DNA of 64,000 nt from Streptomyces capitiformicae (GTDB lineage Bacteria > Actinomycetota > Actinomycetes > Streptomycetales > Streptomycetaceae), in assembly GCF_002214185.1 (NCBI RefSeq), contig NZ_CP022161.1, positions 9,183,486 to 9,247,485 of the forward strand. The letters run 5' to 3'. Under the pieces are notes generated by a model, which saw nothing but the letters and a program-made list of their open reading frames with translations, searched no databases and had not been told where the DNA came from. Every line of letters starts with the position of its first letter. Position 1 is the first letter of the stretch. Shown here piece after piece: positions 1 to 16,143 of this stretch. Position numbers and translations under genes: made by a program.

Positions 1-21
1 CTCTCAGGGAGGCAGCAAGGC

Positions 22-204
22 ATGGACGCGCCTCAGAACAGCCACAACAGCATGCGGCTGGTCGATATCTCCGAGATATCGCCAGCTCTGCTGGACGCGG
101 TGGCAGGGAAGGACACGGTGCTGGGTCATGCCGTGCGACGCCACCTCCAGGAGCAAGACGGCTCGTCCAGGACGACGGGCATCGTCTTCAACAGCGCGCT
201 GTGA
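22..204 (+). CDS. fxsA: FxSxx-COOH cyclophane RiPP precursor peptide 1
   Basis: A 60-residue peptide ending in FNSAL, which fits the F-x-S-x-x-COOH signature of Fxs precursors. In that family a radical SAM enzyme links the Phe ring to the Ser side chain three residues from the C-terminus, giving a strained cyclophane. The leader is charged and helical (LVDISEISPALLDAV, HAVRRHLQEQ), with no signal peptide and no protease cleavage motif that I recognise. The ATG at 22 is supported by GGGAGG at 7-12. The stop codon overlaps the GTG start of the maturase gene (GTGA at 201-204), so the two are translationally coupled. The promoter lies upstream of the window. The family call is firm; the mature product and its activity are unknown. 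Confidence 0.9.
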   Translation: MDAPQNSHNSMRLVDISEISPALLDAVAGKDTVLGHAVRRHLQEQDGSSRTTGIVFNSAL

Positions 205-1454
205 TCACGGTGGAAGCCGGGGCCGGGGGCTTACCTCAAGTCCCTTTCCGGCAATTCCTTCTGAAAATACATAGTTTATGCAATTTGTCCTGTGACTACT
301 GCTATGTGTACTTCGCCGCCGACCAGAGCTGGCGCAGACGCCCCGGAGTGATGGCTCTCGACACCGTGCGGCAGGCCGTGGACCGCATCGCCGAACACGC
401 CCGTGAGCACCGGCTCCCCATGGTGCGGATCATCCTCCACGGGGGTGAACCCCTGCTGGTCGGCAAGGCGCACCTCGGCGAACTGCTCACCGTCCTCGCC
501 GAGCGCCTCGCCCCGGAAGTGGAGGTGCGCTGCTCGCTCCAGTCGAACGGCACCCTCCTCGACCACGACTTCCTCGAACTGCTGCTCCGCCATCGGGTCG
601 GCGTGGCGGTCAGCCTGGACGGTTCCCCCGTGGCCCACGACCGGCACCGGAGATTCGCCAACGGCCGCCCCAGCCACGCACGTGTGGCCGGGGCGCTGCG
701 GCTGCTGAACAACCCTCGCCACAGGGAACTGTTTGTCGGGCTGCTGTGCACCGTGGACCTTGCCAACGACCCCGTCGAGACCTACGAGGCACTGCTGGAG
801 TTCAGCGCACCCCGCGTCGACTTCCTTCTGCCGCACGGCACTTGGGAGTATCCGCCACCGGGCCTCGGACACCGCGAGGTTCCTCCGGCGCGGCCCCCGG
901 CCGACGGGCCACCGGACGAGCCGACACCGTACGCCCAGTGGCTGGCCGCCGCGTTCGACCGGTGGTTCGACGCGCCGCGCAAGGAGACCCGGGTGCGGAT
1001 GTTCGAGGAGATCATCTCAGGAGTGCTCGGGGGCGCCGTGCACACCGAGGCGTTCGGGCTCGCTCCGGTGGATCTCGTCGTCGTCGATGCCGACGGGACC
1101 ATGCAGCACTCCGACTCACTGAAGGTCGTGGCGGAGGGGGCACCCGAAACGGGTTTGGACATATTCCGGCACTCCTTCTCGGACGCGCTGACCACCGAGA
1201 CCGTACGGCGCCGACAGGCCGGGCTCCTCGGCCTCGGCAAGGTCTGCCGCGCATGCGCCCTCGTACAGGTCTGTGGCGGTGGCCTCTACACGCACCGCCA
1301 TCACCACACCGAGGGCTTCGCCAATCCCTCGGTCTACTGCCGTGATCTCGCCGACTTCATCACCCACGTCCGCTCCCGGCTCAGCACGGCGCTGGCGCAC
1401 CCCGACGGAACGCCGGAGGCACTCGGGCCGCACCATCCGTCAGCTCCGTCCTGA
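201..1454 (+). CDS. fxsB: FxsB radical SAM/SPASM cyclophane-forming maturase 1
   Basis: A 417-residue radical SAM enzyme expected to install the Phe-Ser crosslink in the adjacent precursor. The SAM cluster motif CNLSCDYC is at residues 27-34 (Cys27, Cys31, Cys34), and the HGGEPLL motif follows at about residue 80. A C-terminal SPASM-type cysteine cluster (CRACALVQVCGGG, then YC near residue 383) would bind auxiliary iron-sulfur centres. The GTG start overlaps the fxsA stop. Codon 11 (231-233) is TTA, the rare leucine codon read by bldA tRNA in Streptomyces, so translation may be tied to development. The protein is clearly homologous to FxsB2 at 12926-14152, but the two have diverged well beyond a recent duplication. 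Confidence 0.92.
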   Translation: MITVEAGAGGLPQVPFRQFLLKIHSLCNLSCDYCYVYFAADQSWRRRPGVMALDTVRQAVDRIAEHAREHRLPMVRIILHGGEPLLVGKAHLGELLTVLAERLAPEVEVRCSLQSNGTLLDHDFLELLLRHRVGVAVSLDGSPVAHDRHRRFANGRPSHARVAGALRLLNNPRHRELFVGLLCTVDLANDPVETYEALLEFSAPRVDFLLPHGTWEYPPPGLGHREVPPARPPADGPPDEPTPYAQWLAAAFDRWFDAPRKETRVRMFEEIISGVLGGAVHTEAFGLAPVDLVVVDADGTMQHSDSLKVVAEGAPETGLDIFRHSFSDALTTETVRRRQAGLLGLGKVCRACALVQVCGGGLYTHRHHHTEGFANPSVYCRDLADFITHVRSRLSTALAHPDGTPEALGPHHPSAPS

Positions 1455-1781
1455 GCCGGGGTGCGACTCGGGGGCGGGGGCATGGCCAATGCGGCACCCC
1501 ATGAACAAGCACACGGTGAACAGGAGTTGGGCGTGGAGATCGGGGGAAGCATGGATTCGGGCCCTGCCTGAAGGGGGCCCGTCCGGCCGGACAGGGGTAT
1601 CGTTCTCTGTCTCGGCACGACTCAACCAAGGCTATGGCTGAGGGGTACCGGTTGGGGGGTGAGGAGGTGTGGGAGGCAGCCGAAGCGTGTGCACTTCCGC
1701 CGGAATCGGCCACCTTCCGAGGCGCGAGAACCCATTCACCCCGCGATAGGGACCCCGTGAACGCGGCACGTCGGGGGCTCG
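1455..1781. other. Intergenic region between fxsB1 and fxsC1
   Basis: About 327 bases with no convincing gene. A perfect 12-base palindrome, GTCCGGCCGGAC, sits at 1581-1592 and its flanks add a few more complementary bases, so it may be a weak terminator or an operator. A 29-codon reading frame at 1482-1571 has no recognisable features and is not called. The gap suggests that fxsC1-fxsT1 may have its own promoter. Confidence 0.5.
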
Positions 1782-3101
1782 TTGGAACCATACTTCTTCC
1801 TGAGCTATGCGCGCAGGCGCGGACCGCGGGTCCTCGTCAAGCGGTTTTACGACGATCTGTGCGCGGAACTGCGGCGATTACGCAAGGGCAATCCCATGCC
1901 CTCCGACCGACCGTTTCTCGACGTCCAGTCCATTCAGGTGGGCCAGGACTGGAACGCGGCCCTCGGCGATGCTCTCGGCAACTGCCGCACCATGGTGGCC
2001 CTGTATACGAACGACTACTTCAGAAGCGACTTCTGCGGCCGCGAATGGAAGGCCTTCGAGGACCGGCAGCGCAGTCACAGAGAAGTGGCGGGAGTGGATG
2101 CGAAGGCTCTCATCCCCGTCCTGTGGGAGCCCGTACAGAGCATTCCGCCCGGCGCGGCCCACATCCAGTACGACAACCTCGCGTTCGGCGAGAACTACGC
2201 GCAATCAGGGCTGCGGCGCATCCTGGCGGCCGACCCGGGCGGCGGGGAGTACCGTCGTATCGTCAACCTCCTCGCGCGGCAGATCCTCGTCTCCGCCGAA
2301 CACTTCCGCATACCGGCCGTAAGCGGTCTGGACCTCACCGCACCGGAATCCGCCGGTCCGTTCCCGTCCGCCGCCGACCGGGCGGAGCCTGGCAGCCACG
2401 CCCTGCTGCTCGTCGCCGCCCGCACCTCCGCGAGCGCCCACAAGTGGCCAAAGGACCCGGGGTGCCACGGGGAGAGCCCCACCGACTGGAATCCCTACCA
2501 CGCCGAATCCGCAGAGCCAGTGGCCAGGAGAGCGAGCCAGCTCCTGGAGGAGCGCGGCTTCACCGTACGGACCGAGGTCGTCTCGGATGTGCTTGGCGCC
2601 ACCCTGGACGAGGCCCGTGGGCAGGGACAGGTCGCGGTCCTCCTGGTGGAGGCGCAGGCCGCCGCGGACGAACCGTTCGGAAGAGCCCTCCGCGCCTACG
2701 ACCGGAGCAACCATCCGGGCAGCGCGGCCGTGGTTCCGTGCGGTCAGGACGAGGCGGGTGACGGACCCCAGAGCAAGGCCTATTGGGAGGCGGTCCGGGG
2801 CGTCTTCCCGTTCAACTGGTCGAAAGGAGCCGGGGATCCCCTGCCCCTGCTCCAATCAGGGATCGGCTCGGACCAGTTCGACGGGGCACTCCACGCCGTT
2901 GTGGTAAAGGTGCAGAACCATCTCTTCTCCTTCCAGGAGACGCTCAAGCTCAGCTCCCTGGAGAGCGACCAGATCACGTCCACATCGCTCCCCGTCCTGA
3001 GCACAGTGGCCGTCCCACCCGACCAGACGAAGCCCGCTCCGCCGACACCTGCCCGCCCCGCCTCCGATCCGATTCTCTTAGAGCAGGAGCAGGACAGATG
3101 A
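1782..3101 (+). CDS. fxsC: TIR-like protein FxsC 1
   Basis: A 439-residue protein of the FxsC family, a constant partner in FxSxx-COOH loci. The N-terminal half begins EPYFFLSYARR and continues with FYDDL, a TIR-like fold start (hydrophobic strand, then S-Y-A-R). A second domain starts near residue 200 (LLLVAARTSA) and has a conserved W-NPY segment. The TTG start at 1782 is chosen because an in-frame stop lies at 1758-1760 and the paralogue reads LEQPYFFLSYARR at the same point. TTA codons occur at codon 33 (1878-1880) and codon 433 (3078-3080). The stop overlaps the fxsT1 start (ATGA at 3098-3101). Whether the TIR-like fold hydrolyses NAD, binds nucleotides or only mediates interactions cannot be told by eye. 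Confidence 0.85.
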   Translation: MEPYFFLSYARRRGPRVLVKRFYDDLCAELRRLRKGNPMPSDRPFLDVQSIQVGQDWNAALGDALGNCRTMVALYTNDYFRSDFCGREWKAFEDRQRSHREVAGVDAKALIPVLWEPVQSIPPGAAHIQYDNLAFGENYAQSGLRRILAADPGGGEYRRIVNLLARQILVSAEHFRIPAVSGLDLTAPESAGPFPSAADRAEPGSHALLLVAARTSASAHKWPKDPGCHGESPTDWNPYHAESAEPVARRASQLLEERGFTVRTEVVSDVLGATLDEARGQGQVAVLLVEAQAAADEPFGRALRAYDRSNHPGSAAVVPCGQDEAGDGPQSKAYWEAVRGVFPFNWSKGAGDPLPLLQSGIGSDQFDGALHAVVVKVQNHLFSFQETLKLSSLESDQITSTSLPVLSTVAVPPDQTKPAPPTPARPASDPILLEQEQDR

Positions 3102-6100
3102 CCGATGACGACCGTGGCCGGGGCACCATCATCACCTTCTACTCCTTCAAGGGCGGCACGGGCCGCACCATGGCGCTCGTCAACACCGCCTGGATCCTCG
3201 CGAGCAACGGTCTGCGCGTCCTCGTCGTCGACTGGGACCTCGAAGCGCCCGGACTGCACACCTACCTCCAGCCCCTGCTGGCCGACCCCGAGCTCACCGA
3301 GAGCGCCGGCGTCATAGAGATGGTCAGTTCCTTCGCACGGCATGCCGTCGCGCAGCGGGTGGGCTCGGGGGTGTCCGACGCGGGCGCCAGCGCACCGCCC
3401 CCGCCGAAGGGCGACCTGCCCGACGCCCCCGGCCACCGGGAGCAGGCCCGCGTCGACCGCTACGTCGTCGGTACCGAACTGCGCCTGCCAGCGGGCGGAA
3501 AACTCGACCTCCTGCCCGCGGGCGTGCAGGACGCCGACACCTACGCGGTCAAGGTCAGCACCTTCGACTGGGGCGCGTTCTACCGCATGGGCGGCCCCGA
3601 CTTCCTCACTGCCCTGCGCGACGACATGGCCGCGCGGTACGACTACGTCCTCATCGACAGCCGGACCGGCCTCAGCGACACCGCGAGCATCTGCACGATC
3701 GTCATGCCGGACATCGTCGTGGACTGCTTCACCCTCAGCCGACAGGGCATCAACGGCGCCGCCCACGTGGCACGTGCCATCCGCCTCAACTCCCACGCCC
3801 GACGCGACATCCGTATCGTCCCCGTCCCCATGCGCGTCGAGGACGCCGGGCGCGACCGCCTGGAGGCCGGCCGCTACCAGGCGCGGAGCCTGTTCGCGCC
3901 CTTCCTGGACTGGGTGCCGCCCGAGGAGCAGGACCAGTACTGGAGCAGCGTCGAGATACCGTACAAACCCAGCTACGCGTACGAGGAGATCCCCGCGACC
4001 GTCGGAGAGCGACGGCAGGACGGCACCCTCCTCGCCGCGTTCGAACGGCTGACCGCCCGGCTCACCGACAACCGGGTGACCCGCCTGAGCAACCTGCCCG
4101 AGCCCTACCGCCGTACCCTGCGCGCGGAGTACGAGCGCACCTCGCCGACCCTGCGCAAGGACTTCTACGTCAGTTACACGGCGACTGACCGGCTCTGGGC
4201 GGACTGGACCGTCAGCGTGCTGCGAGCCGCCGGCTACGAGGCGACGCTCGCTCCGATCGAGACGGACGGACTCGCCGACACGCCCCCCGCACCGACCGGC
4301 CTCGATCGCACGCTCGCCGGCGAGGGGCGCATGGTGGTGCTGCTCTCGCCGGAGTACACCGCCCATCCGCGGGCACGGGAGATCTGGCAGCAGATCAGCC
4401 GCCGTGACCCGGTCGGCCGAATCGGCATGGCCGTTCCCCTCCGTGTCGGCGACTCCCCGCCACCGCCGGAGTTCGCGCCCCCCTCGACGGTCAGTCTCGC
4501 CGGGGTCTCCGCCGAGGAGGCCGTGGCCCGACTGCTGACCAGCGTCGACCGCAGCGGCTCGACGGACCCGGCCTCCCGCCCGGCCACCGGGGGACTGACC
4601 GCCGCGGCCCGGTTGCCCGGCACTCCACCGCAGGTCATCGGCGGGCGGCCGCAACGCAACGTCGCCTTCACCGGCCGCCGGACGCTCATCGAACGGCTGC
4701 GCGACAGCCTGCTCGCCGGTACCACTGCCGTTCTGCCCCAGGCCCTCTACGGCCTCGGAGGTGTGGGGAAGACACAGGTCGCGCTCGAGTACGCGTACCG
4801 CTTCGAATCGGACTACGATCTCGTCTGGTGGATCAACGCCGCAGAGCCGACGCAGATCCGCCAGGACCTGAACACGCTGGCCGGGCATCTCGGTGTGCCC
4901 CTCGGTGGCAAGGACTTGACGGCCGTATGCAACGAGGTTCTGGACAAGCTACGGCGCGGCACCCCCCACGCGCGTTGGTTGCTCGTGTACGACAACGCCG
5001 AGAAGCCGGCCGACCTGGACGGTCTGGTTCCGGTCAGCGGGCCCGGTCACCACATCCTCATCACCTCGCGGAACCCGGCCTGGGCCGAACGCGCCGCACG
5101 CATCGAGGTCGATCTCTTCACCCGTGACGAGAGCGTCGCCCTGCTGCGCCGCTACAACCAGGCCCTCGAACCCGCCGAGGCGGCTCGGGTGGCCGAGGAA
5201 CTCGGGGACTTCCCGCTGGCCGTGAGCCTCGCCGCCGCGTCACTCCAGGAGTCGGCGATGCCCGTGGACACCTATGTGGAGATGCTCCGTACTCAGATGA
5301 CCGACATCCTGCGCAGCCAGTCTGCTCCCGATTACCCGACGTCGGCGGCGGCCAGCTGGTCACTCGACCGGCTGAAGACCCGCACGCCCGCCGCGGCCGC
5401 CCTGCTCCAACTGTGCGCGTTCTTCGGGCCCGACCCGATCCCACGGGACATGCTCAGCAGCCGGCCCGCCCTCGAACTCCTCGAACGCCACGACCCGAGC
5501 CTGTCCGACCCCCTGCTGATGAGCAGGCTGTACGGAGAGATCGTCCGCAACGGACTCGCCCAGGTGGACCAGCGGACCGACACCCTGACGCTGCACCGCC
5601 TCATCCAACGCGTGCTCCGCGATCAGCTCACCGTCGACGAGCAGACCGCCATGCGGGACCGCGCCCACGCCGTACTCGGCCAGGCCAACCCCAAGGACCC
5701 CGACGAGTCCGAGAACTGGCGACGCTACGCCGCCCTGCTGCCGCACCTGTGGCCCACCCGGGCCGAGGAGAGCGACAGCCTCCCGGTACGGCAGTGGATC
5801 TGCGACACCGTCCGCTATCTGTGGCGCAGCGGCGACGCCGACACGGCCAACCGGACAGCCGAACGGGTGCTCGCCGCCTGGCTGCCCCGCCTCGGCGAGG
5901 ACGACGCGCTGGTGCTGCGCCTGCGCACCGAACTCGGCAACGCGCTGCGCGACCAGGGCCGCCTGGCGGAGGCGTACGACGTGACCCGCGACGCCCACGA
6001 GCGGGGCAGCCGGGTCCTCGGCGAGGACCACCCCTACACCCTCGGCGCGGCCTCCAGCCTCGGCGCCGACCTGCGCGGTGTCGGCCGGTACGCCGACGCC

Positions 6101-7129
6101 ATGGAGAGCGACCGCGAGAACCTGCGCCGCACCCGGCGGGTCTTCGGCGACAGCCATCCGCGTACGCTCATGGCGGCCAACAACCTCGCCGTGTCCGAGT
6201 TCCTGTCCGGCAACCGCCAGGCGGCCCGCGACACCAACCGGGAGATGCTCAAACAGTGGCGGGAGATCTCGGGGTCCGACCATCGCTCCACACTCAACTC
6301 CGCCGTGAACTACGCCCGGGACCTACGGGCTGCCGGGGCGTTCCGCGAAGCGCTCAAGCTCACCGAGGACACCTTGGAGCGCAGCCGGCACGCGCTGGGG
6401 CCCGACCACTTGATCACCTTCCGTGCCTCCCTCGGCGCCGCGATCCTGTACCGCAGGCAGGGCGAGTACGAGAAGGCGTACGCACTGACGAACGACACCT
6501 ACGAACAGGCACTCAAGCAGCTGGGCCCGGATCACCACGACACCCTGGCCATCGCGACGAACCTGAGCGCGGACCTCTACGACCGGGGAGAGTCGGTCCG
6601 GGGCCGCGAACTCGCCAAGGAGACCCTCAACCGCTACGAGCACCGGTTCGGTCCGGATCACGTCTTCACGCTCGCCTGCGCCAACAACCTCGCCATCCTG
6701 CTCCGGCTGACCGGCGAGCAGGGAGCCGCGCTGGAACTGTCGACTCACACAGTCGACCGCTTCCGTCGACTTCTCGGACCGAGCCATCCCTACACCCTCA
6801 CCTGCATGCTGAACCACGCGACGGACCTGTCCGAGAGCGGTGACCACGCACGAGCCGTGATGGTGGGCCGGGAAGCGTACGAGGGCCTCGGCGAGGTACT
6901 CGGCCCCAACCACTATCTCGCCATCGCCGCCGCCTCGAACCTCGCGGCCGAACTGCGCGGCGATGATTCGGAGGACGCCGAGCGGCTCCACGAGGAAGCG
7001 GGCCGGCTCCACGGCGAGGCGGAGCGCCGCGCCGTCGACAGCGGGGAACTCGGCGGTGACCACCCCATGACCCGGGCGGTCACCCGCTGGCAGCCCATCG
7101 ACGCGGACATCGAACCGGCGGTCACCTGA
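3098..7129 (+). CDS. fxsT: FxsT 1: KGGTGRT ATPase, TIR-like, NB-ARC and TPR protein
   Basis: A 1343-residue multidomain protein. Residues 1-300 form a ParA/MinD-like P-loop domain with the variant motif KGGTGRT (residues 18-24) and DWDLEAPG. A TIR-like segment (FYVSYTATDRLWADW) starts near residue 354. An NB-ARC/STAND ATPase follows, with P-loop GLGGVGKT near residue 552, a Walker B-like LLVYDNAE near 628 and LITSRNP as sensor. From about 935 to the end there are TPR repeats of the N-x-A-x-x-L type. This is the architecture of the FxSxx-system TPR protein, and resembles STAND proteins of bacterial immunity and signalling. The ATG at 3098 overlaps the fxsC1 stop. Its role in Fxs biology is not established; sensing the peptide or a trigger through the TPRs is an inference. 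Confidence 0.88.
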   Translation: MTDDDRGRGTIITFYSFKGGTGRTMALVNTAWILASNGLRVLVVDWDLEAPGLHTYLQPLLADPELTESAGVIEMVSSFARHAVAQRVGSGVSDAGASAPPPPKGDLPDAPGHREQARVDRYVVGTELRLPAGGKLDLLPAGVQDADTYAVKVSTFDWGAFYRMGGPDFLTALRDDMAARYDYVLIDSRTGLSDTASICTIVMPDIVVDCFTLSRQGINGAAHVARAIRLNSHARRDIRIVPVPMRVEDAGRDRLEAGRYQARSLFAPFLDWVPPEEQDQYWSSVEIPYKPSYAYEEIPATVGERRQDGTLLAAFERLTARLTDNRVTRLSNLPEPYRRTLRAEYERTSPTLRKDFYVSYTATDRLWADWTVSVLRAAGYEATLAPIETDGLADTPPAPTGLDRTLAGEGRMVVLLSPEYTAHPRAREIWQQISRRDPVGRIGMAVPLRVGDSPPPPEFAPPSTVSLAGVSAEEAVARLLTSVDRSGSTDPASRPATGGLTAAARLPGTPPQVIGGRPQRNVAFTGRRTLIERLRDSLLAGTTAVLPQALYGLGGVGKTQVALEYAYRFESDYDLVWWINAAEPTQIRQDLNTLAGHLGVPLGGKDLTAVCNEVLDKLRRGTPHARWLLVYDNAEKPADLDGLVPVSGPGHHILITSRNPAWAERAARIEVDLFTRDESVALLRRYNQALEPAEAARVAEELGDFPLAVSLAAASLQESAMPVDTYVEMLRTQMTDILRSQSAPDYPTSAAASWSLDRLKTRTPAAAALLQLCAFFGPDPIPRDMLSSRPALELLERHDPSLSDPLLMSRLYGEIVRNGLAQVDQRTDTLTLHRLIQRVLRDQLTVDEQTAMRDRAHAVLGQANPKDPDESENWRRYAALLPHLWPTRAEESDSLPVRQWICDTVRYLWRSGDADTANRTAERVLAAWLPRLGEDDALVLRLRTELGNALRDQGRLAEAYDVTRDAHERGSRVLGEDHPYTLGAASSLGADLRGVGRYADAMESDRENLRRTRRVFGDSHPRTLMAANNLAVSEFLSGNRQAARDTNREMLKQWREISGSDHRSTLNSAVNYARDLRAAGAFREALKLTEDTLERSRHALGPDHLITFRASLGAAILYRRQGEYEKAYALTNDTYEQALKQLGPDHHDTLAIATNLSADLYDRGESVRGRELAKETLNRYEHRFGPDHVFTLACANNLAILLRLTGEQGAALELSTHTVDRFRRLLGPSHPYTLTCMLNHATDLSESGDHARAVMVGREAYEGLGEVLGPNHYLAIAAASNLAAELRGDDSEDAERLHEEAGRLHGEAERRAVDSGELGGDHPMTRAVTRWQPIDADIEPAVT

Positions 7130-7149
7130 CCTGACGGCCGGCCGAGGCA

Positions 7150-7197
7150 GGCCCTGCGGGCGATCCTGTCCGCAGGGCCCACGTGGCTGTCACGTGG
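7150..7197 (+). terminator. Two adjacent hairpins after fxsT1
   Basis: A perfect 10-bp stem (GGCCCTGCGG at 7150-7159 with CCGCAGGGCC at 7170-7179, 10-base loop) is followed at once by a 7-bp stem (CCACGTG at 7179-7185 with CACGTGG at 7191-7197). There is no T-tract, as is usual in Streptomyces. It would separate the first C-T pair from the second. Confidence 0.65.
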
Positions 7198-7315
7198 CCG
7201 AACCCGGCACCACGGATCCTCGCGGGAGCCCCTGTCACGGGAACAGCAGTCGCCGAAACGTTCATTCGCCATTCGGCAGCATGTCTGAGAGCGGCGGCGG
7301 CAGGGTAGGACCTCG

Positions 7316-8560
7316 ATGCCGTCGGTGCGGCGCGGCACGGTGGGGGGCACCTTGGAGCAGCCGTATTTCTTTCTCAGCTACGCCAGGCGGGACGACCGGG
7401 CGGCTTATGTGGGGCGGTTCTACGACGACCTGCTGGAAGCCCTCGCCATGCCGGTGACGGGATCGGCCCGGCAGCCCGCCTTCCGTGACGTCAAGAACAT
7501 CATGCTCGGTGACCAGTGGCTTCTTGAACTGAGCCGTGCGGTGGGCTCGTGCCGGGCCATGGTCGCGCTCTACTCCCCGGCCTACTTCCGGAGCGAGTAC
7601 TGCGGCAAGGAGTGGACCCACTTCGCCGCCCGCGTGGAGCGCTACCACCAACTGACCTCCGTACAGCCCCGCGCACTGGTCCCGGTGATATGGGAACCCG
7701 TCCCGCAGAGCCGGATGCCCCTCGAGGTCCGGGCCATCCAGTACACCGAGGCGGGACTGGGGGAGAAGTACCTCAGACACGGGCTGCTGCATCTGATGCA
7801 GTCCGACCCCGGCGGGCCCGCGTACCAGCACGTCGTCGCGGAGCTGGCCGAGCGGGTGCGCAGGGCGGCGGAGCCGTTCAACCTGCCTGTCGACAGACCC
7901 CCGGCGTTCGACCTGTCGAAGGTCCGGGGCTGCTTCCCGCTCGCCGAGGCAAGAAAACTCACCGGCCACGTCCGGATCTTCGTCGCGGCCGGCACTGAGT
8001 CGAAGCTTCCGGTCGGACGTTCACACACCACGTACTACGGGGAGGGCCCATGCAAGTGGACGCCGTACAGTCCGCCGCGCGACCCGACCGTGGTGGAGCG
8101 GGCCGCGCAGGTCCTCTCCCTGGAGGGACATACCGCGAGCGCGGAGGCGGTGAACCGCGAGCTGAACAGCAAGCTGGAGCGGGCCCGCCACCTCAACCAG
8201 GTGTGTGTCCTGCTCGTGGACGCCTGGTCGGCGCGCGACGAACGGTACCGAGGTCCACTCGTCAGCTACGACAAGACGCACCACCCGACGACCGCGGTAC
8301 TCGTACCCTGCAACGAGAACGACATGGAGTCGGGTACGCACAACGCGGCCCTGTGGGACGCGGTCAGAGATGTCTTCCCACGGAACTGGCTGCGCCGCAA
8401 CGACCCCCGTGACCCGGTGTTCTGGGCGCCCGTCGACCAGCACGAGTTCGACGAGATGCTGGCCAGGGCCGTGGCCGTGACCCAGAACCGAATCGCCGTC
8501 AGCGGCCATGTCCGGCGACTGCCACCGGGCGCCCCACCCGGGGCGATGCCCCGGCTGTGA
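7316..8560 (+). CDS. fxsC: TIR-like protein FxsC 2
   Basis: Second FxsC-family protein, 414 residues from the ATG at 7316. The conserved part begins EQPYFFLSYARRDD, so the TTG at 7352, preceded by a G-rich stretch, is an equally possible start and would match the TTG start of fxsC1. It has the same two-part layout: an N-terminal TIR-like region with FYDDLLEA and YFRSEYCGKEW, then a C-terminal domain starting near residue 218 (RIFVAAGTES) with a W-PY segment. It lies 186 bases after fxsT1 and 30 bases before fxsT2. The two FxsC copies share motifs throughout but differ enough to be old paralogues or separate acquisitions. Confidence 0.85.
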   Translation: MPSVRRGTVGGTLEQPYFFLSYARRDDRAAYVGRFYDDLLEALAMPVTGSARQPAFRDVKNIMLGDQWLLELSRAVGSCRAMVALYSPAYFRSEYCGKEWTHFAARVERYHQLTSVQPRALVPVIWEPVPQSRMPLEVRAIQYTEAGLGEKYLRHGLLHLMQSDPGGPAYQHVVAELAERVRRAAEPFNLPVDRPPAFDLSKVRGCFPLAEARKLTGHVRIFVAAGTESKLPVGRSHTTYYGEGPCKWTPYSPPRDPTVVERAAQVLSLEGHTASAEAVNRELNSKLERARHLNQVCVLLVDAWSARDERYRGPLVSYDKTHHPTTAVLVPCNENDMESGTHNAALWDAVRDVFPRNWLRRNDPRDPVFWAPVDQHEFDEMLARAVAVTQNRIAVSGHVRRLPPGAPPGAMPRL

Positions 8561-8590
8561 TCCGTCGACCACGACTGCCCAGGAGACCGG

Positions 8591-11500
8591 ATGAGCACAT
8601 CCAGCGAACCGGACGGCCGCGGCCAGGTCGTCACCTTCTACTCCTTCAAGGGCGGTGTCGGACGCACGATGGCCCTGGCGAACGTGGCATGGATCCTGGC
8701 CAGTCGGGGCAAGCGCGTCCTGGCCGTCGACTGGGACCTGGAGGCCCCGGGCCTGCACAGCTACTTCCACCCGCTGCTCACCGACCCCGAACTGCGTGAC
8801 ACCGACGGGCTGATCGACCTGCTGCGCGCCTACCAGCAGGCGGTACTGCTGCCCGGCCACGAGGAGGCACCACAGGACGACGGATGGTTCCGCCGGACGC
8901 TGGACCTGACGCCTTACGTGGTCGGCCTCGATCTGAAGTTCGCGAGCGGCGGACGGCTGGACTTCCTGCCCGCCGGACGGCAGAGCGCCGTGTACTCGGA
9001 CTCCGTCACGTCCTTCGACTGGCATTCCTTCTATGAACGGCTCGGCGGGGGATCGTTCCTGCTGGCGATGCGTGAGGAAATGGCCGCCCGCTACGACTAC
9101 GTCCTGATCGACAGCCGTACGGGCGTCACCGACAGTTCGGGCATCTGCACGGTCCTCTTACCCGACCACCTCGTCCTCGGCTTCGTCTACAACCTGCAGA
9201 ACATCCGGGGCTCCGCGCACGTCGCCCGCGCCGTGACCAGGGGCGCCCGACGGCCGATCCGGCTGATGCCGGTGCCCATGCGGGTCGAGGACGCGGAGCG
9301 GGAGCGGCTCGAGATCAGCCGAGACCGCGCCCGGGAGGTATTCGGTGGCCATCTGTCGTGGGTGGACGAGGGCGACGTCGAACGGTACTGGGGCGACGTG
9401 GAGATCCCGTACAAGACGTTCTACGCGTACGAGGAGATCGTCGCACCCGTCGGTGACCGCCCGTTGCAGGAAGGCACCGTACTCAAGGCCTGCGAACGGC
9501 TCACTGACTGGATCACCGACGGTGAGGTCCGGCGCGCCGCTCCCCTGCCGGACGAGGAGCGGCAACGGCTGCTGACCGCGTACATGAACAAGAGCAGGGC
9601 CACCAGCGCCCGTCTCTTCGTCAGTTACGCGCCGGAGGACCGGATCTGGGCGGAGTGGGCGGCCTGGCATCTGGGGTCCGCCGGTTTCCGCGTCACGCTG
9701 CACGACATCACAGAGATCAAGCCGGGCGAGACCGCTCCGGAGGTGGTGCGTGCCCTGGCGGAGGAAGGCAGGGTCCTCGCCCTGCTGTCCGAGGAGTACA
9801 TCGCGGTGCCGCAGTCCGTCGTGCTCTGGCGGGCGCTGACGGTCAGGGAGCGCGCGCTGGCCCCCGAACTCGTCGCGGTTCGCGTTCAGGGTGCCGAGCG
9901 GGCCCTTGAGCCGCCCTTCGACCTCGCTGCCGCGCCCAGCATCGCCCACCTCACGGCTGTGAACGCGGTACGGCGGCTGAGGCAGAGCGTCGGCCCGCCG
10001 CCCTCGGCCCCGGTGCGCGGTGCACCCGTCCTGCTGACCACGGAACCCCCGCGCTATCCGGGCGCCGATCCGACCGTGGAGTCGATGCCACCGAGGAATG
10101 TCGGTTTCACCGGCCGGAACGCGCTGCTCCACGAGTTGCGGGACCGGCTGACCTCCACCGAGGGGTCCTCGTCGCCGCAGGTCCTGGTGGGTCTCGGCGG
10201 AGTGGGCAAGACCCAGACGGCACTGGAGTACACCTACCGTTATCGCGCTGCGTACGACGTGGTGTGGTGGGTCCCGGCCGCTGAGCCCGCGGCCATCGCC
10301 TCCGAACTGGCTCGCCTCGCACCCCGACTCGGCATCGAACACGGGCAGGACACCGCGCTCACCGCTCAGCGGGTGCTCAGGGCTCTGGCCGGCGGAACGC
10401 CGTACCGCAACTGGCTGCTCGTCTTCGACAGCGCGGGTGCCCCGGGCAAGACGGCCGAGTGGCTCCCCGCCCAGACGTCGCAGGGTGGGCATGTGCTTGT
10501 CACCTCCCGCGACCGTACGTGGGAAGAGGCCGGAAACGTGCTTCCGGTCGAGGTGTTCAGCCGGGCCGAGAGTGTGGCTCTCCTGGGTCGGCACAACCCG
10601 GGCCTCGACCCGGACAGCGCGCAGCAGATCGCGCACGAACTCGGTGACCTCCCCCTCGCCGTCCACCAGGCCGCGGTGTGGCTGAGCGCCACGGCCATGC
10701 CCGTCGACCGCTATCTGCACCTGTTGCGTACACAGACCACGGAACTGCTCAAGCGCACCGAGAAACGACCGCTGGAGATGGCGGGCTGGCTGGTGTCGTT
10801 GGAGGAGATCCGGGCCAACAGCCCCGCCGCCGCGGACTTGTTGGAGATCTGCTCCTTCTTCGGCGCCGACCCCATCCCCATGGACCTGTTGTACACCCCT
10901 TCTCTGATGGACGCTCTGACGCTCGACGAGGGCGTCCCCCGGGACGAGGTGACCATCGGCAAGGTCTTCCAGGAGATCAACCGGTTCGGGCTGGCCCAGG
11001 CGGACCAGGAGGAGGGCACGCTCGTCATCCACCGGCTGGTGCAGGCGGAGGTCAGGCACTCGCTACCCGAGGAACGGTGCCGGCACTTGCGCTCGGTGGT
11101 GCATGCCGCGCTCGCCGCGGGCAACCCCGGGGCCCCTGTCGACCCCGAGAAGTGGCCGCGCTATGCGCAGTTGCTGCCTCATCTGTTGCCCAGCCGTGCA
11201 GCGGGCAGCGACGATCCGGACGTGCAGCAGTGGATCATCGACACGGTGCGCTGTCTGTGGCGCCGTAATCTGCTCGCCTCCGGGCGGGACACCGCCCAAC
11301 GCGTCCTCGAGCAGTGGACCGAGCGCCTGGGGCCGGATGACATCCAGGTACTGCGGCTGCGCACCCAGCTCGGCAACATCCTGCGTTCCCAGGGTGCTTC
11401 ACGTGAGGCCTGGGCGAACGACGTCGACGTCCACCGGCGATTCGCCGCGCACACGAATCCTGATCGCCGACGCACACTGATCGCGGCGGCGAATGTGGCC

Positions 11501-12541
11501 GCCGACCTCAACGCGCTGGGTCGTTACGCCGAAGCTCGGGAATGGGACCGCGCCACGTATGAGGCCAGCAAGGCGGTTTGGAGCCCTGACCAACTCCGGC
11601 TGTCCATGCACGCCAGTAACCTCGGTGTCTCGGAGTACCTGTGCGGGGACCGGCGTGCGGCACTGGAGATCCACAAAAGGGTGTACCACGACCGGGTCGC
11701 CCGTAGGGGCGCCATGGACGTCTACACCCTCAGCGCGGCCTCCAACTACGCCCGCGATCTGCGCGAGACCGGCTATCTCAAGACCGCTCTCCACCTCTTG
11801 GAAGAGACCTGCCAGAAGGTGGAACAGCTTGGTCCGAGGCACGCCCAGACCTTGCTCACCCAGCGCAACTACGCGGTGGCACTGCGCCGGGCCGGCTATT
11901 ACTCGGAGGCCCATGAACTCATCGCGTCCGTCCATCTGGTCTACGCGGAGGACCGCGGCCGTGACCACCCGGACACCCTGGCCGCCCGCGCCGACCTGGC
12001 CAATGTGCTCGCCGCCCTTGATAAAGTCCGCAGCGCCCGTGACCACGCCGAGCACATACTGACGCGTCAGCGGCAGACCCTGGGGGAATCGCACCCCCAC
12101 ACGCTGGGATGCCAGAACAACCTGGCGATCTATCTACGGCTCGGCAGCCACACGGACGCCGCCCGCGCCGCCTCCGAACGGGCCTTGCGGGCGCTGACCG
12201 AGACCCTCGGGGAGCGGCATCCCTACACCTTGGACGCGATGATCAACTACGCCAACTGTCTCGCCGACGCCGGTCAGCCGGAGGCTGCCATATCCCTCGA
12301 ACGCGAGGCGCTCGCGAGGGCGTTGGAGACTCTGGGCGCCGACCACTACGACATCATCACGCTGCGTTCCAACCTCGCGGTCGATCTCGCCTCGACTGGT
12401 GCGTCGGAGGAGTCGAAGGAGCAGCGCGATGAGGCCCTGCGGCTCGCTGCCCGAACCCTGCGCGACCACCATCCGACCCACGAGGCGGTGAAGAGCGGGC
12501 TGCGACTGGACGCGGACATCGAACCACCCTTCACCTTCTGA
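8591..12541 (+). CDS. fxsT: FxsT 2: KGGVGRT ATPase, TIR-like, NB-ARC and TPR protein
   Basis: A 1316-residue paralogue of FxsT1 with the same domain order. KGGVGRT is at residues 20-26 and DWDLEAPG follows. A TIR-like segment (LFVSYAPEDRIWAEW) starts near residue 341. The NB-ARC P-loop GLGGVGKT lies near residue 535 with LLVFDSAG and VLVTSRD downstream. TPR repeats run from about 913 to 1296. The ATG at 8591 follows AGGAG at 8581-8585. A TTA codon is present at codon 190 (9158-9160). Both FxsT proteins end with the same RxDADIEPP-like tail, which suggests a conserved C-terminal function. What the protein senses or controls is unknown. Confidence 0.88.
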   Translation: MSTSSEPDGRGQVVTFYSFKGGVGRTMALANVAWILASRGKRVLAVDWDLEAPGLHSYFHPLLTDPELRDTDGLIDLLRAYQQAVLLPGHEEAPQDDGWFRRTLDLTPYVVGLDLKFASGGRLDFLPAGRQSAVYSDSVTSFDWHSFYERLGGGSFLLAMREEMAARYDYVLIDSRTGVTDSSGICTVLLPDHLVLGFVYNLQNIRGSAHVARAVTRGARRPIRLMPVPMRVEDAERERLEISRDRAREVFGGHLSWVDEGDVERYWGDVEIPYKTFYAYEEIVAPVGDRPLQEGTVLKACERLTDWITDGEVRRAAPLPDEERQRLLTAYMNKSRATSARLFVSYAPEDRIWAEWAAWHLGSAGFRVTLHDITEIKPGETAPEVVRALAEEGRVLALLSEEYIAVPQSVVLWRALTVRERALAPELVAVRVQGAERALEPPFDLAAAPSIAHLTAVNAVRRLRQSVGPPPSAPVRGAPVLLTTEPPRYPGADPTVESMPPRNVGFTGRNALLHELRDRLTSTEGSSSPQVLVGLGGVGKTQTALEYTYRYRAAYDVVWWVPAAEPAAIASELARLAPRLGIEHGQDTALTAQRVLRALAGGTPYRNWLLVFDSAGAPGKTAEWLPAQTSQGGHVLVTSRDRTWEEAGNVLPVEVFSRAESVALLGRHNPGLDPDSAQQIAHELGDLPLAVHQAAVWLSATAMPVDRYLHLLRTQTTELLKRTEKRPLEMAGWLVSLEEIRANSPAAADLLEICSFFGADPIPMDLLYTPSLMDALTLDEGVPRDEVTIGKVFQEINRFGLAQADQEEGTLVIHRLVQAEVRHSLPEERCRHLRSVVHAALAAGNPGAPVDPEKWPRYAQLLPHLLPSRAAGSDDPDVQQWIIDTVRCLWRRNLLASGRDTAQRVLEQWTERLGPDDIQVLRLRTQLGNILRSQGASREAWANDVDVHRRFAAHTNPDRRRTLIAAANVAADLNALGRYAEAREWDRATYEASKAVWSPDQLRLSMHASNLGVSEYLCGDRRAALEIHKRVYHDRVARRGAMDVYTLSAASNYARDLRETGYLKTALHLLEETCQKVEQLGPRHAQTLLTQRNYAVALRRAGYYSEAHELIASVHLVYAEDRGRDHPDTLAARADLANVLAALDKVRSARDHAEHILTRQRQTLGESHPHTLGCQNNLAIYLRLGSHTDAARAASERALRALTETLGERHPYTLDAMINYANCLADAGQPEAAISLEREALARALETLGADHYDIITLRSNLAVDLASTGASEESKEQRDEALRLAARTLRDHHPTHEAVKSGLRLDADIEPPFTF

Positions 12542-12713
12542 TTCGGTGCCACGAAGCAGTGTGGGGCCCATGTGGTGCGGCGAAGTTTTCTGTGCGGTGC
12601 TTTGTGCGTATTCTTGCCGCTCTATTTAGGCCGCCGCTGCTATCCTCCGCACACGGATACGGGTACGTCCTGTTGAGTGGATGCTCTGTATCGGCTTTGA
12701 CTCTAGGAGACCG

Positions 12714-12920
12714 GTGTCACCCTCTTTGTCCTCGACAGACGTGCTTACAGGCTCCGTCATTCTTAGTGTGGGCCTCACCCGGCCTGCCGAGGACCGTCCT
12801 CGTACCGTCACCGCGAACAGTGCCCTTGGTCATGTACTGCGCCGCCTCGAACAGGAGGCCGCGAATCCGGATGTCGCACACCTCGCGGCTTTCGAATCTT
12901 CGATCGATTTCGAGGCGTAG
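12714..12920 (+). CDS. fxsA: FxSxx-type RiPP precursor 2 with extended C-terminus
   Basis: A 68-residue peptide from the GTG at 12714, chosen because AGGAGA at 12705-12710 is correctly spaced; an ATG at 12681 is in frame but has no such site. The protein ends AAFESSIDFEA. It contains FESSI, a perfect FxSxx, but four further residues (DFEA) follow before the TAG. The canonical family ends exactly at FxSxx. The leader shares the GHVLRRL pattern with precursor 1 (GHAVRRHL). It lies 5 bases upstream of fxsB2 and 172 bases after fxsT2; the gap is AT-richer (TATTTA, TATCCT) and probably holds its promoter. It may be a diverged precursor with an internal core, or may have lost its original stop codon. 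Confidence 0.8.
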   Translation: MSPSLSSTDVLTGSVILSVGLTRPAEDRPRTVTANSALGHVLRRLEQEAANPDVAHLAAFESSIDFEA

Positions 12921-12925
12921 GTGCG

Positions 12926-14152
12926 GTGAGCTTCCCGCGGGTTCCGTCAACTCCCGTTTCCTTGCGGCAGTTCATCCTCAAGGTGCACAGCCGTTGCAAC
13001 CTGGACTGCGGCTACTGCTACGTCTACCACTCCGCCGACACCAGCTGGCGCGACAAACCACGTGTCATGGACGCGTCCGTCGCGAAGCAGGTGGCCCACC
13101 GCATCGCCGAGCATGCCGCGGCCCATGATCTGCCAGACGTTCGGATCGTGCTCCACGGCGGTGAGCCGCTGCTTCTGGGGGCCGGACGGCTGGAGGAACT
13201 GCTCACCGTTCTCCGCCGAGGATTGGCGAAGACGGCGGTACCCGTCCGTTTCTCCCTGCAGACCAACGGCGTACTGCTCACCCCCGACATCCTGGACGTG
13301 CTTCGACGGCATCGGGTCGGCGTCAGTGTGAGCCTGGACGGCACCCGAGCGGGCCATGACCGGCATCGCCGGTTTCCGCACGGCGCGGGGAGTCACGGGC
13401 AGGTGATGGGAGGACTCGACCGTCTGAACGCGCCCGAGTACCGCCTGCTGTACGCGGGCCTGCTGTGCACGATCGACCTGGCCAACGACCCCGTCGAAAC
13501 CTACGAGGCACTCCTGGCCGCACGTCCCCCCCGCGTCGACCTCCTGCTCCCGCACGGCACATGGGACACACCGCCCCCAGGGCTCGGAGACCGGCGGCAC
13601 CGGCTCCCCACCGCCGCCCCGGTGACCGTCGACGGGGTGATGGCTCACCGAGGGGAGACCCCGTACGCCGACTGGCTGCGGCGAGTCTTCGACCGCTGGT
13701 ACGACTCCCCCGAGAGGGAGACGGGCATCCGGCTCTTCGAGGAACTGATGGCGGGTGTCCTCGGCGGCTCCGTACGCACCGAGTCCGTCGGCCTGGCCCC
13801 GGCGACGCTGGCCGTCATCGAGACCGACGGCTCCATCGAGCAGTCCGACTCACTCAAGGTCGCTTACGAAGGCGCGCCGGAGACAGGACTCGACGTCTTC
13901 CGCTACAGCCTCGACGACGTCCTCGGGCATCACTTGTTCCGTCAACGCCAGTCGGGCGTAGGGGGTCTGGGACCCACGTGCACACGCTGCCCCCTCCTCG
14001 GCGTGTGCGGGGGTGGGCTCTTCGCGCACCGGTACGCCTCCGGAACCGGCTTCCGCAACCCCTCGGTCTACTGTGCCGACCTGACCGCGTTGATCCTGCA
14101 CATCCGGGCCCGCGTCCAGGCCGACCTCGTCACGGCATCACAGAGCACATAG
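12926..14152 (+). CDS. fxsB: FxsB radical SAM/SPASM cyclophane-forming maturase 2
   Basis: A 408-residue radical SAM enzyme homologous along its full length to FxsB1. The SAM cluster motif CNLDCGYC is at residues 24-31 (Cys24, Cys28, Cys31), HGGEPLL follows, and a SPASM-type cysteine cluster (CTRCPLLGVCGGG) and a late YC pair sit near the C-terminus. The GTG start at 12926 lies 5 bases after the precursor stop, so translation is likely coupled. It is expected to crosslink the FESSI core of the adjacent peptide. Unlike fxsB1 it has no TTA codon that I found. Whether the two maturases accept each other's precursors is open. Confidence 0.92.
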   Translation: MSFPRVPSTPVSLRQFILKVHSRCNLDCGYCYVYHSADTSWRDKPRVMDASVAKQVAHRIAEHAAAHDLPDVRIVLHGGEPLLLGAGRLEELLTVLRRGLAKTAVPVRFSLQTNGVLLTPDILDVLRRHRVGVSVSLDGTRAGHDRHRRFPHGAGSHGQVMGGLDRLNAPEYRLLYAGLLCTIDLANDPVETYEALLAARPPRVDLLLPHGTWDTPPPGLGDRRHRLPTAAPVTVDGVMAHRGETPYADWLRRVFDRWYDSPERETGIRLFEELMAGVLGGSVRTESVGLAPATLAVIETDGSIEQSDSLKVAYEGAPETGLDVFRYSLDDVLGHHLFRQRQSGVGGLGPTCTRCPLLGVCGGGLFAHRYASGTGFRNPSVYCADLTALILHIRARVQADLVTASQST

Positions 14153-14198
14153 GGTAGGCTTCACCTGCGAGTTCACACACAACACCGTGAAAGCGCAA

Positions 14199-14272
<74 letters not shown>

Positions 14273-14490
14273 CTCGTCTGACATCAGCAAGGTCCCCACC
14301 CATAACCACACCAACGACTGAGCTGGCCAGCAGTCACGGCAAGCACCGTTGCAGTACTAAACGGCAATTTTCAGTTCTCGTGGCAAGGTGCCAGCTGTCA
14401 TGTCACAACTTCGTCGCCATCGCGATCCCGTTGGTTCTCGGTGACAACCGTCCTCGGCATGTGACAACTAACGTCGGTGGTCACACCGAA

Positions 14491-15669
14491 CTAACGCCGG
14501 ACCCGGGGCATCCCCAGACCGATCCACGAGATGATCTCGCGTTGGATCTCGTTGTTGCCGCCGCCGAAGGTGAAGATGACGGCGGAACGGTAGCCGCGTT
14601 CCAGTTCGCCGTGGAGGGCGGCGCCGGCGGAGCCTTCTTTCAGGGCGCCGGCGGTGGCGACGATCTCCATGAGCCAGGCGTAGGCGTCGCGGCGGGCCTC
14701 GGAGCCGTAGACCTTGACGGCGGAGGCGTCCTGGGGGGTGAGGGTGCCGTCCTGGACGGCGCTGACCATACGCCAGTTGAGGAGTTTGAGTGCGTCGAGC
14801 TTGGTGTGGGTCTGGGCGAGGCGGCGGCGTACCCAGGGGAGGTCGATGACGCGGCGACCGTCGGCGAGCTTGGTCTCCATGGCCCAGTGCTGGACGTTGT
14901 GCAGGGAGCGGATGGCCATGGTGCCGTGGGCGGCGAGGGTGACGCGCTCGTGGTTGAGCTGGTTGGTGATCAGCCGCCAGCCCTTGTTCTCCTCGCCGAC
15001 GCGGCGGGAGACGGGGACGCGGATGTTCTCGTAGTAGCTGGCGGTGGTGTCGTGCGAGGCGAGGGTGTTGATGAGGGTGCAGGAGTAGCCGGGGTCGGTG
15101 GTCGGGACGAGGAGCATGGTGATGCCCTTGTGGGGCGGGGCGTCGGGGTCGGTGCGGGTGGCCAGCCACACCCAGTCCGCTGTGTCGCCGTTGGTCGTCC
15201 AGATCTTCTGGCCGTTGACCACGTACTCGTCCCCGTCGCGCACCGCGCGGGTCTTCAGTGAGGCCAGGTCGGTGCCTGCGTCGGGCTCGCTGTAGCCGAT
15301 CGCGAAGTCGATTTCGCCGGAGAGGATGCGCGGCAGGAAGTACGACTTCTGCTCCTCGGTGCCGTACCGCATGATCGTCGGGCCGACCGTGTTGAGCGCC
15401 ATCAGGGGCAGCGGGACGCCCGCCTGGGCGGCCTCGTCGAAGAAGATGAACTGCTCGATGGCGGTGAGGCCGCGTCCGCCGTACTCCTTGGGCCAGCCCA
15501 CGCCCAGCCAGCCGTCCGTGCCGAGGCGGCGGATGGTCTCGCGGTAGAAGCGCTTCTGCGCCGCCGGGTCGGCGTGGCGGGTGTGGGCACCCGTCGGCAC
15601 CAAAACGGCGAAGTAGGCGCGCAGTTCGGTGCGCAACCGCTGCTGCTCGGGTGTGTATTCGAGGTGCAC
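14491..15669 (-). CDS. Acyl-CoA dehydrogenase family protein
   Basis: A 392-residue FAD-dependent acyl-CoA dehydrogenase. It starts with the helical N-terminal domain (LEYTPEQQRLRTELRAYF). The middle domain contains GYSEPDAGTDLASL, the usual GxSEPxAGSD flavin/substrate segment, and NGQKIWTTN. The C-terminal domain ends with the FTFGGGNNEIQREII motif of the FadE-like subgroup. The GTG start at 15669 is set by GGAGG four bases upstream. About 45 bases further upstream lies a KstR-like palindrome, the same operator type that controls steroid and terpenoid acyl-CoA degradation in other actinomycetes. The acyl substrate cannot be stated. There is no other gene of a degradation pathway beside it, so it looks like a stand-alone transcription unit. 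Confidence 0.88.
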   Translation of the reverse strand: MHLEYTPEQQRLRTELRAYFAVLVPTGAHTRHADPAAQKRFYRETIRRLGTDGWLGVGWPKEYGGRGLTAIEQFIFFDEAAQAGVPLPLMALNTVGPTIMRYGTEEQKSYFLPRILSGEIDFAIGYSEPDAGTDLASLKTRAVRDGDEYVVNGQKIWTTNGDTADWVWLATRTDPDAPPHKGITMLLVPTTDPGYSCTLINTLASHDTTASYYENIRVPVSRRVGEENKGWRLITNQLNHERVTLAAHGTMAIRSLHNVQHWAMETKLADGRRVIDLPWVRRRLAQTHTKLDALKLLNWRMVSAVQDGTLTPQDASAVKVYGSEARRDAYAWLMEIVATAGALKEGSAGAALHGELERGYRSAVIFTFGGGNNEIQREIISWIGLGMPRVRR

Positions 15670-15712
15670 GGCGCCTCCAGGCTCCCCAGGGCGGACCTGA
15701 CGGCGCACACGC

Positions 15713-15726
15713 TAGAACGTGTTCCA
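15713..15726. promoter_or_regulatory. KstR-like operator
   Basis: TAGAACGTGTTCCA fits the TnnAACnnGTTnnA consensus known for the TetR-family repressor KstR. It lies 44 bases upstream of the acyl-CoA dehydrogenase start. A further GTGTTCC-8-GGAACAC inverted repeat overlaps it (15720-15741). No tetR gene is in the window. Confidence 0.55.
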
Positions 15727-15756
15727 GTAATTGGGAACACATTCATGGCAACACAT

Positions 15757-16143
15757 TCAGTCGAGGACGGCGAGGAAGTCCGTACAGGCCCGGGCGCAGT
15801 CGCGGCAGGCCTTGGCGCCTTCCTCCGCGCCGGGCTGTTCGTCGAAGACGCGGGCGCACTCCAGGCAGACGGTTCGGCACCACTCCACCTGGACGCGGAT
15901 ACCGGCTTCGTCGAGGAGGCTCTGCTCGGACAGCACACGGCAGGTGGCGTCGCACACCTCCGCGCACATGATGCCCTTGCGTCGCATGCGTTCCTGGTCT
16001 TCGGGCCCGTCCGGGTCGGCGAGGCTCGCCCGCAGGGCACACGCACGCGCGCACTCGGTGCACGCCTGCGCACATGCGAAGCGGTCCTCCAGGAAGCGAA
16101 CGAGTTCCTGTTGGGATGTTTGGGATGTCGTCGTCGAGGTCAC
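15757..16143 (-). CDS. Cysteine-rich four-helix bundle protein, copper-storage (Csp/DUF326) type
   Basis: A 128-residue cytosolic protein from the GTG at 16143; a GTG at 16218 would add 25 residues of poorly protein-like sequence. Cysteines are spaced as in four-helix-bundle Csp proteins: CAQACTECARAC, CAEVCDATC, CRTVCLECARVF and CRDCARAC, one cluster per predicted helix. In that family the cysteines line the bundle core and store many Cu(I) ions. No signal peptide is visible, so it resembles the cytosolic Csp3 group. It is divergent from the DUF6479 gene, and a candidate copper operator lies between them. The ribosome site is weak, so the start is uncertain. Confidence 0.75.
   Translation of the reverse strand: MTSTTTSQTSQQELVRFLEDRFACAQACTECARACALRASLADPDGPEDQERMRRKGIMCAEVCDATCRVLSEQSLLDEAGIRVQVEWCRTVCLECARVFDEQPGAEEGAKACRDCARACTDFLAVLD

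Follow-up and report, generated by a model that had tools for sequence, protein, structure and literature searches.

What does it mean for one chromosome to carry two old and unlike sets of the same peptide-modifying system side by side, and do the sets work together or apart? The question is raised by a 64,000-nucleotide stretch of the Streptomyces capitiformicae chromosome (contig NZ_CP022161.1; here, the window), in which all four component families of the FxSxx-COOH (FXS) system occur twice. These are FxsA, the precursor of a ribosomally synthesized and posttranslationally modified peptide (RiPP), its radical SAM/SPASM maturase FxsB, the TIR protein FxsC, and the multidomain protein FxsT. 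The eight genes lie between positions 22 and 14152, all on the + strand, at 9.18 Mb on a single 10.99-Mb chromosome contig, with the A-B pairs at the two ends and the C-T pairs in the middle. Our reading, held tentatively and at a little short of an even chance, is that they make up two FXS conflict systems, independent of each other and separate in origin, each consisting of an A-B and a C-T module and each of a peptide-linked TIR type resembling nucleotide-binding leucine-rich-repeat (NLR) receptors. The features of the locus are as follows.

22..204, + strand: FxsA1 precursor, 60 aa, ending in FNSAL-COOH; TIGR04268, 36.7 bits; its stop and the B1 start overlap (GTGA, 201-204).
201..1454, + strand: FxsB1, a 417-aa radical SAM/SPASM cyclophane synthase lacking an HExxH domain; TIGR04269, 466 bits; 8 invariant cysteines.
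1609..1680, + strand: 72-bp block 5′ of C1, apparently noncoding, strongly conserved in set-1 loci; candidate promoter or leader of the C1-T1 module.
1782..3101, + strand: FxsC1, TIR protein, 439 aa, TTG start, 4-bp overlap with T1 (ATGA); Glu88 in C-x-x-E-W; NF040588/TIGR04276, 192/90 bits.
3098..7129, + strand: FxsT1, 1343 aa, with MinD-like (KGGTGRT), TIR-like, NB-ARC, DUF7779, and TPR domains; NF040586, 936 bits.
7316..8560, + strand: FxsC2, TIR protein, 414 aa, alternative start TTG at 7352; Glu99 in C-x-x-E-W; NF040588/TIGR04276, 169/141 bits; structure model.
8591..12541, + strand: FxsT2, 1316 aa, architecture of the T1 type (KGGVGRT); NF040586, 921 bits.
12714..12920, + strand: FxsA2 precursor, 68 aa, inferred GTG start after AGGAG, FESSI core and DFEA tail; TIGR04268, 18.8 bits.
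12926..14152, + strand: FxsB2, a 408-aa radical SAM/SPASM cyclophane synthase lacking an HExxH domain; TIGR04269, 470 bits.
14199..14273, + strand: tRNA-Pro (GGG), right edge of the locus in eight same-site genomes.

The original prediction, that each of the four families occurs twice in the order A1-B1-C1-T1-C2-T2-A2-B2 on one strand, agrees with these coordinates and with the NCBIfam scores (cutoffs of 370 bits for TIGR04269, 130 and 55 for NF040588 and TIGR04276, and 300 for NF040586), save for one member: A1 scores above the TIGR04268 cutoff of 28 bits and A2 below it. By spacing, the genes fall into four two-gene modules, with A1/B1 and C1/T1 each overlapping by 4 bases, C2/T2 lying 30 bases apart and A2/B2 5 apart, while the gaps between modules measure 327, 186 to 222 (depending on the start of C2), and 172 bases. 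A search for an element shared ahead of the four modules gave only 9-mers common to two of them, nothing convincing, and the tRNA was the only match to Rfam at gathering score in window positions 1 to 16000.

The two sets are full length and clearly diverged, as had been predicted: all copies have open frames with the expected motifs, and identity between sets is 16/56 positions for A (29%), 229/397 for B (58%), 148/399 for C (37%), and 573/1300 for T (44%). Since copies this unlike lie on a single contig, an assembly duplication is ruled out, and with it the near-identity of copies that the prediction had named as its own undoing. A recent tandem duplication was likewise considered and rejected, since holding C1 and C2 together is disfavored (p value of the approximately unbiased test [p-AU], 0.022) and the T and C trees separate the sets. 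In those trees (71 T, 54 B, and 46 C sequences after length filters; quick trees, with long branches flagged), set 2 clusters with other loci, most of which read A-C-T-B-H (H being a separate HExxH protein), and apart from set 1 (support of 100 and 99 in the Shimodaira-Hasegawa-like approximate likelihood ratio test [SH-aLRT]). These A-C-T-B-H loci are found in Streptomyces and Kitasatospora. By this measure, C and T of the two sets belong to separate lineages. The best B tree pairs B1 with B2 weakly (support, 84), and the alternative grouping is not rejected (p-AU, 0.158). For B, C, and T in either set, every orthologue pair tested gave a Nei-Gojobori ratio of nonsynonymous to synonymous divergence (dN/dS) between 0.12 and 0.35, indicating purifying selection on these genes. 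Full-length genes, the expected motifs, and purifying selection across orthologues in each set show that both have been functional, in keeping with the suggestion that both may be active.

Whether the sets depend on each other can be read from relatives. We compared eight genomes, the window included, whose locus is bounded on its right by the same tRNA-Pro(GGG); genome G248 holds the same locus as Streptomyces caniscabiei L011 and was left out of the counts. Left-flank DNA is shared by the eight and includes a YceI-domain gene, the stretch of which is absent in locus L092, and long aligned stretches of the window around the locus are ~80 to 87% identical to Streptomyces adelaidensis, S. caniscabiei, and Streptomyces europaeiscabiei. 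Every one of the eight holds at least one complete set, and the window alone holds both. Set 1 stands alone in L089 and L091 (genomes G228 and G254), where window position 7130 is joined to 14150, whereas set 2 stands alone in S. adelaidensis (L010) and is accompanied by a 156-base T1-like scrap in S. europaeiscabiei (L012). S. caniscabiei carries A1, scraps of B1, a full-length T1, and a complete set 2, with C1 gone. L090 and L092 (genomes G108 and G320) have set 1 and a full-length, open A2-B2, having lost C2-T2 with differing remnants. Outside this comparison, G007 and G275 (L073 and L093) likewise have set 1 by itself, in 20-kb stretches that hold no tRNA, and set-1 FxsC (identity of at least 70%) was found in at least 7 of 392 sampled genomes, that of the window included. 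What relatives retain at this site is either one of the two versions or odd parts, so the system seems to be put together from separable halves, A-B and C-T. An obligate paired recognition system, as the prediction had proposed, is not borne out, for 7/8 same-site genomes lack one complete set; nor is either set inactivated in all relatives, each being complete in some and broken or absent in others.

C2-T2 seems to have been lost twice independently, because the remnants differ, because T1 of L092 groups with that of S. caniscabiei and not with L090 (SH-aLRT, 99), and because the synonymous divergence (dS) of L090 B2 is 0.21 from the B2 of S. europaeiscabiei, which has C2-T2, and as much as 0.41 from the B2 of L092. 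A2-B2 was spared both times, and B2 dN/dS is 0.18 to 0.29 in pairs with L090 or L092 compared with 0.18 to 0.23 among genomes bearing C2-T2. This hints that A2-B2 may be used without C2-T2, and is a hint and no proof since the events are few and at least one looks recent. The 72-base block ahead of C1 is identical at 68 to 70 of 72 positions in L089, L090, and L092 and at 57 of 72 in L073 and L093, and differs by a 1-base deletion in L091; its conservation suggests that C1-T1 may have a promoter or leader of its own. In S. europaeiscabiei, two identical copies of tRNA-Pro(GGG) flank the FXS region (L012 99-173 and 15658-15732), and a 29-base tRNA-Pro 3′ piece lies beyond (17716-17744), a pattern that integrating elements may leave.

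The precursors of the two sets differ in kind. In set 1 the terminus is exactly F[NED]SAL in all 8 orthologues, and in set 2 all 6 have FES[STA][IL] followed by a tail of 4 to 9 residues (DFEA, EFEAPMW, YAESPMR, ECEAEASME, DYEAPK, and PSEARM), these counts having been made only after the A2 tail was noticed. A2 is thus not an FxSxx-COOH peptide. Despite its score, it is identifiable as a precursor because of its position before B2, a leader motif, LGHxxRR (found in 5/8 A1 and 5/6 A2 sequences), and its orthologues. With A2 under the cutoff and FESSI running on into DFEA, set 2 is therefore FXS-like in its B, C, and T proteins and has a precursor that carries a tail. In loci related to set 2, 10 precursors were found upstream of C (that of L032, with a fused B, included), and 7 of them are tailed, by 1 to 7 residues; by pattern, none was found there in L013, L014, L016, L026, or L075, and L023 lay outside that search. 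Complete long FxsB genes (>700 aa) are accompanied by a precursor ending exactly in FxSxx in 25/25 cases. Because precursors in set 2 and related loci are tailed, a free C-terminal FxSxx is not generally required.

In both maturases, all 8 cysteines that are invariant in 54/54 FxsB sequences, CxxxCxxC included, are kept, and FxsB2 matches the radical SAM structure of ChlB (PDB 9gm3) at an E value of 3e-71. The Phe-x-Ser of A1 and A2 is a candidate for an aromatic i to i+2 cross-link of the triceptide type. A Phe-to-Ser link of this kind, from C4 of Phe to C-beta of Ser, is among those described for MscB in the parts of the literature cited here (PMC11002830, PMC12636437), which also treat ChlB and ChlBH among three-residue cyclophane enzymes. 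The window differs from ChlBH in having no hydroxylase at the locus, and the modification of A1 and A2 is a prediction. No open frame within 2.5 kb behind B1 or 1.8 kb behind B2 shows the HExxH pattern, and the hydroxylase family TIGR04267 has one match in the whole genome, in an unlinked third system at 2.257 Mb; since it is the only one, hydroxylation of A1 or A2 would need that system. Elsewhere, HExxH is found by pattern in 24/25 long FxsB proteins (the exception being L076) and behind B in 15 A-C-T-B-H loci; the check by profile covered L008, L014, L018, and L036. Seven loci (L018, L021, L022, L023, L024, L025, and L033) have two unlike FxsB proteins per C-T pair, in the order C-T-B-H and then A′-B′H, and most of this group carry a further precursor upstream of C. 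Regions resembling AAC(3)-family acetyltransferases, below curated cutoffs, lie beside FXS genes in L014 (15328-17088, in one frame with the HExxH domain) and L073 (6862-7635); none was seen among the scanned left-flank open reading frames of the window locus.

The Glu of C-x-x-E-W in the FxsC TIR domain is present in 46/46 sequences and lines up with the catalytic Glu86 of Roq1, a plant receptor. FxsC has both the TIR fold and this NADase-type glutamate, and NAD+ hydrolysis is predicted. In the 17 FxsT sequences listed, no Glu immediately precedes the Trp of the TIR-like domain or the residue equivalent to that Trp, from which we infer a loss of TIR activity. T1 and T2 both keep the NB-ARC P-loop GLGGVGKT, HRLxQ at the place of MHD, and TPRs that resemble those of kinesin light chain, a kind that binds short peptides. 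Their MinD-like domain reads KGGxGRT, with Arg replacing the P-loop Lys, and the MinD-like domain of such proteins is called inactive in the part of Kaur et al. 2020 (PMC7159879) drawn on here. In Kitasatospora L036 (1081-4623) and L038 (990-4535), an FxsC TIR is fused to an FxsT NB-ARC-TPR, and these fusions neighbor A-BH as well as a separate C-T pair.

Earlier publications or NCBIfam already give the families, the way they are associated, and a prediction of a toxin or signal role. The window shares all four FXS families with the NCBIfam system (TIGR04268, TIGR04269, NF040588/TIGR04276, and NF040586) and differs in having two diverged sets in one locus, an A2 without C-terminal FxSxx, and no HExxH hydroxylase in either set. 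In the part of their paper used here, Kaur et al. 2020 (PMC7159879) predict that peptides of the FxSxx type are toxins or signals coupled to AP-ATPase effectors, and include actinobacterial systems that stand alone and have a MinD/ParA-like AP-ATPase, a protein that by our own matching of names is FxsT in all but name. Those systems resemble ours in the FxSxx peptide, the radical SAM/SPASM enzyme, and an AP-ATPase with TIR, TPR, and MinD-like domains, but have a core metallopeptidase, of which the window locus has none; a separate TIR protein FxsC and double loci are not singled out in that part of the text. The original prediction regarded the function of FxsC and FxsT as undescribed. A toxin or signal role had thus been predicted for such systems (PMC7159879), while a literature search with little coverage of subscription papers returned no experimental role for either protein and, as the prediction supposed, no study of a double locus. 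We offer as new the double locus, the same-site series of losses, the tailed A2 class, the C-T fusion, and the apparent pairing of a Glu-bearing TIR in FxsC with a Glu-less TIR-like domain in FxsT.

In the two-system reading that we favor, FxsB would join Phe to Ser through their side chains within the FxS motif of FxsA, and the stapled C-terminal peptide, alone or with a foreign molecule, would be sensed by the TPR domain of FxsT. FxsT would then assemble through its NB-ARC domain, its apparently dead TIR-like domain would dock and activate FxsC, and the FxsC TIR would consume NAD+ or make a nucleotide signal, such that an infected or nonself cell is stopped or killed. FxsT would thus act as a switch for the TIR effector FxsC, with the stapled peptide as ligand or coligand; two such sets would serve as mutual backups or answer to different triggers, and neither would depend on the other. 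The likeness is to TIR immune proteins built on signal transduction ATPases with numerous domains (STAND; plant TNL, SPARTA), given the TIR fold and Glu of FxsC, the P-loop and TPRs of FxsT, and their fusion in two Kitasatospora loci, with the difference that FxsC and FxsT are separate genes here, alongside a RiPP precursor and its maturase.

Several observations weigh against this reading. By domain, dN/dS is 0.16 to 0.37, and the TPR and FxsC domains are without positive selection, which weighs against a fast arms race. Foldseek alone returned no PDB match for the FxsC model at E ≤ 0.001 (the best, a plant TIR, at 3.7e-3). In T1 and some other FxsT TIR-like domains, a Glu stands two positions ahead of the Trp, so that the "dead" domain is an alignment reading, and the mechanism does not account for the MinD-like domain. 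FxsC matched no PADLOC family, and the only matches of FxsB and FxsT were partial, of FxsB to pVip over the radical SAM core and of FxsT to PDC-M28B, the best stretch of the latter falling within its MinD-like start. No defense island is evident in the left flank, the side scanned, which holds polyketide synthase-type, catabolic, and YceI genes, and FxsC2 matched none of 50,697 phage records.

Two rivals are, in our view, improbable without being negligible. The stapled FxsA could be a secreted antimicrobial or an intracellular toxin, with C-T controlling its release or conferring immunity, a role that the "peptide toxin or signal" of Kaur et al. 2020 (PMC7159879) allows, as far as its cited part goes, and that would resemble darobactin and some other radical SAM cross-linked RiPPs, which are antibiotics according to the portion of PMC9055067 considered. 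Against it, family profiles reveal no transporter or protease among the eight genes, and C and T make up about 79% of the coding length of the locus. To our knowledge, moreover, TIR plus NB-ARC is not a usual architecture for an immunity protein. The second, to which we give about the same low weight, is that A-B and C-T form a peptide-signaling circuit for hyphal growth or development with no immune role, similar to RRNPP systems, which are peptide-TPR receptors. The short C-terminal peptide motif alongside a TPR protein, the conserved block ahead of C1-T1 in set-1 loci, and the single chromosomal site in eight genomes would fit such a circuit, but the repeated losses at that site, the NADase-type glutamate of FxsC, and its patchy occurrence (at least 113 of 295 genomes of the genus, at least 111 of them above cutoff) do not.

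Crosstalk between the sets, a possibility raised in the prediction, is somewhat plausible, because A2-B2 was kept after the loss of C2-T2 in two genomes and A1 after the loss of most of B1 in one, and because the leader motif is common to A1 and A2 sequences (10/14). That the A-B pair of one set serves the C-T pair of the other, with modules exchanged between sets, we nevertheless consider quite doubtful. In its favor, L090 and L092 retain an open A2-B2 beside an intact set 1, with B2 in the low dN/dS range given above. However, the loss in L090 looks recent by its B2 distances, leaving little time for decay, dN/dS for L092 is slightly higher (0.26 to 0.29), and the trees place the sets alike except for the one weak difference in B. 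A comparably long shot is that the site works as an allele-like switch in these hyphal bacteria, where A-B "tag" and C-T "receptor" modules would be shuffled into lineage-specific mixes. The mixes would serve hyphal self/nonself recognition, much like heterokaryon incompatibility in fungi, or an immunity keyed by peptides, and the loss of the free C-terminal FxSxx in the A2 lineage would belong to the tag code. An obligate pair of sensor set and executor set, in the style of plant paired NLRs, is very improbable: the sets adjoin in the window with C-T pairs central and copies that differ, but single-set genomes with intact genes largely refute it, and both C keep their Glu and both T their P-loop, so that no division of labor is visible.

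The same genome holds further FXS genes. The third system, at 2.26 Mb, has a fused FxsBH. At 3.10 Mb (G000:C1:3097318-3100351; L074 8680-12349), an FxsC-FxsT pair stands with no FxsB in the 19 kb covered, and a stop truncates its FxsT to 808 aa, ahead of most of the TPR part. At 4.04 Mb (G000:C1:4039105-4039542; L009), a precursor-like open reading frame with an FTSTI end lies beside FxsB fragments, a decayed A-B pair. Spread by plasmids or phages was considered and rejected: of 72,556 plasmid records, 5 matched FxsC2, all at <35% identity, FxsB2 matched 84, all at <60%, and phage records gave no FxsC2 match.

FXS systems are common in the genus, yet the literature search described above returned no experimental role for FxsC or FxsT. 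The locus and its same-site relatives amount to a natural experiment, its conditions being either set by itself, the two together, and A-B without C-T, and the tailed precursors form a class of which A2 is a member that the current FxSxx-COOH model scores below its cutoff. FxsC, as a TIR protein with the glutamate, can be named as a concrete candidate enzyme, and the role that a peptide may play for a TIR-NLR is made approachable through swaps of modules in laboratory strains.

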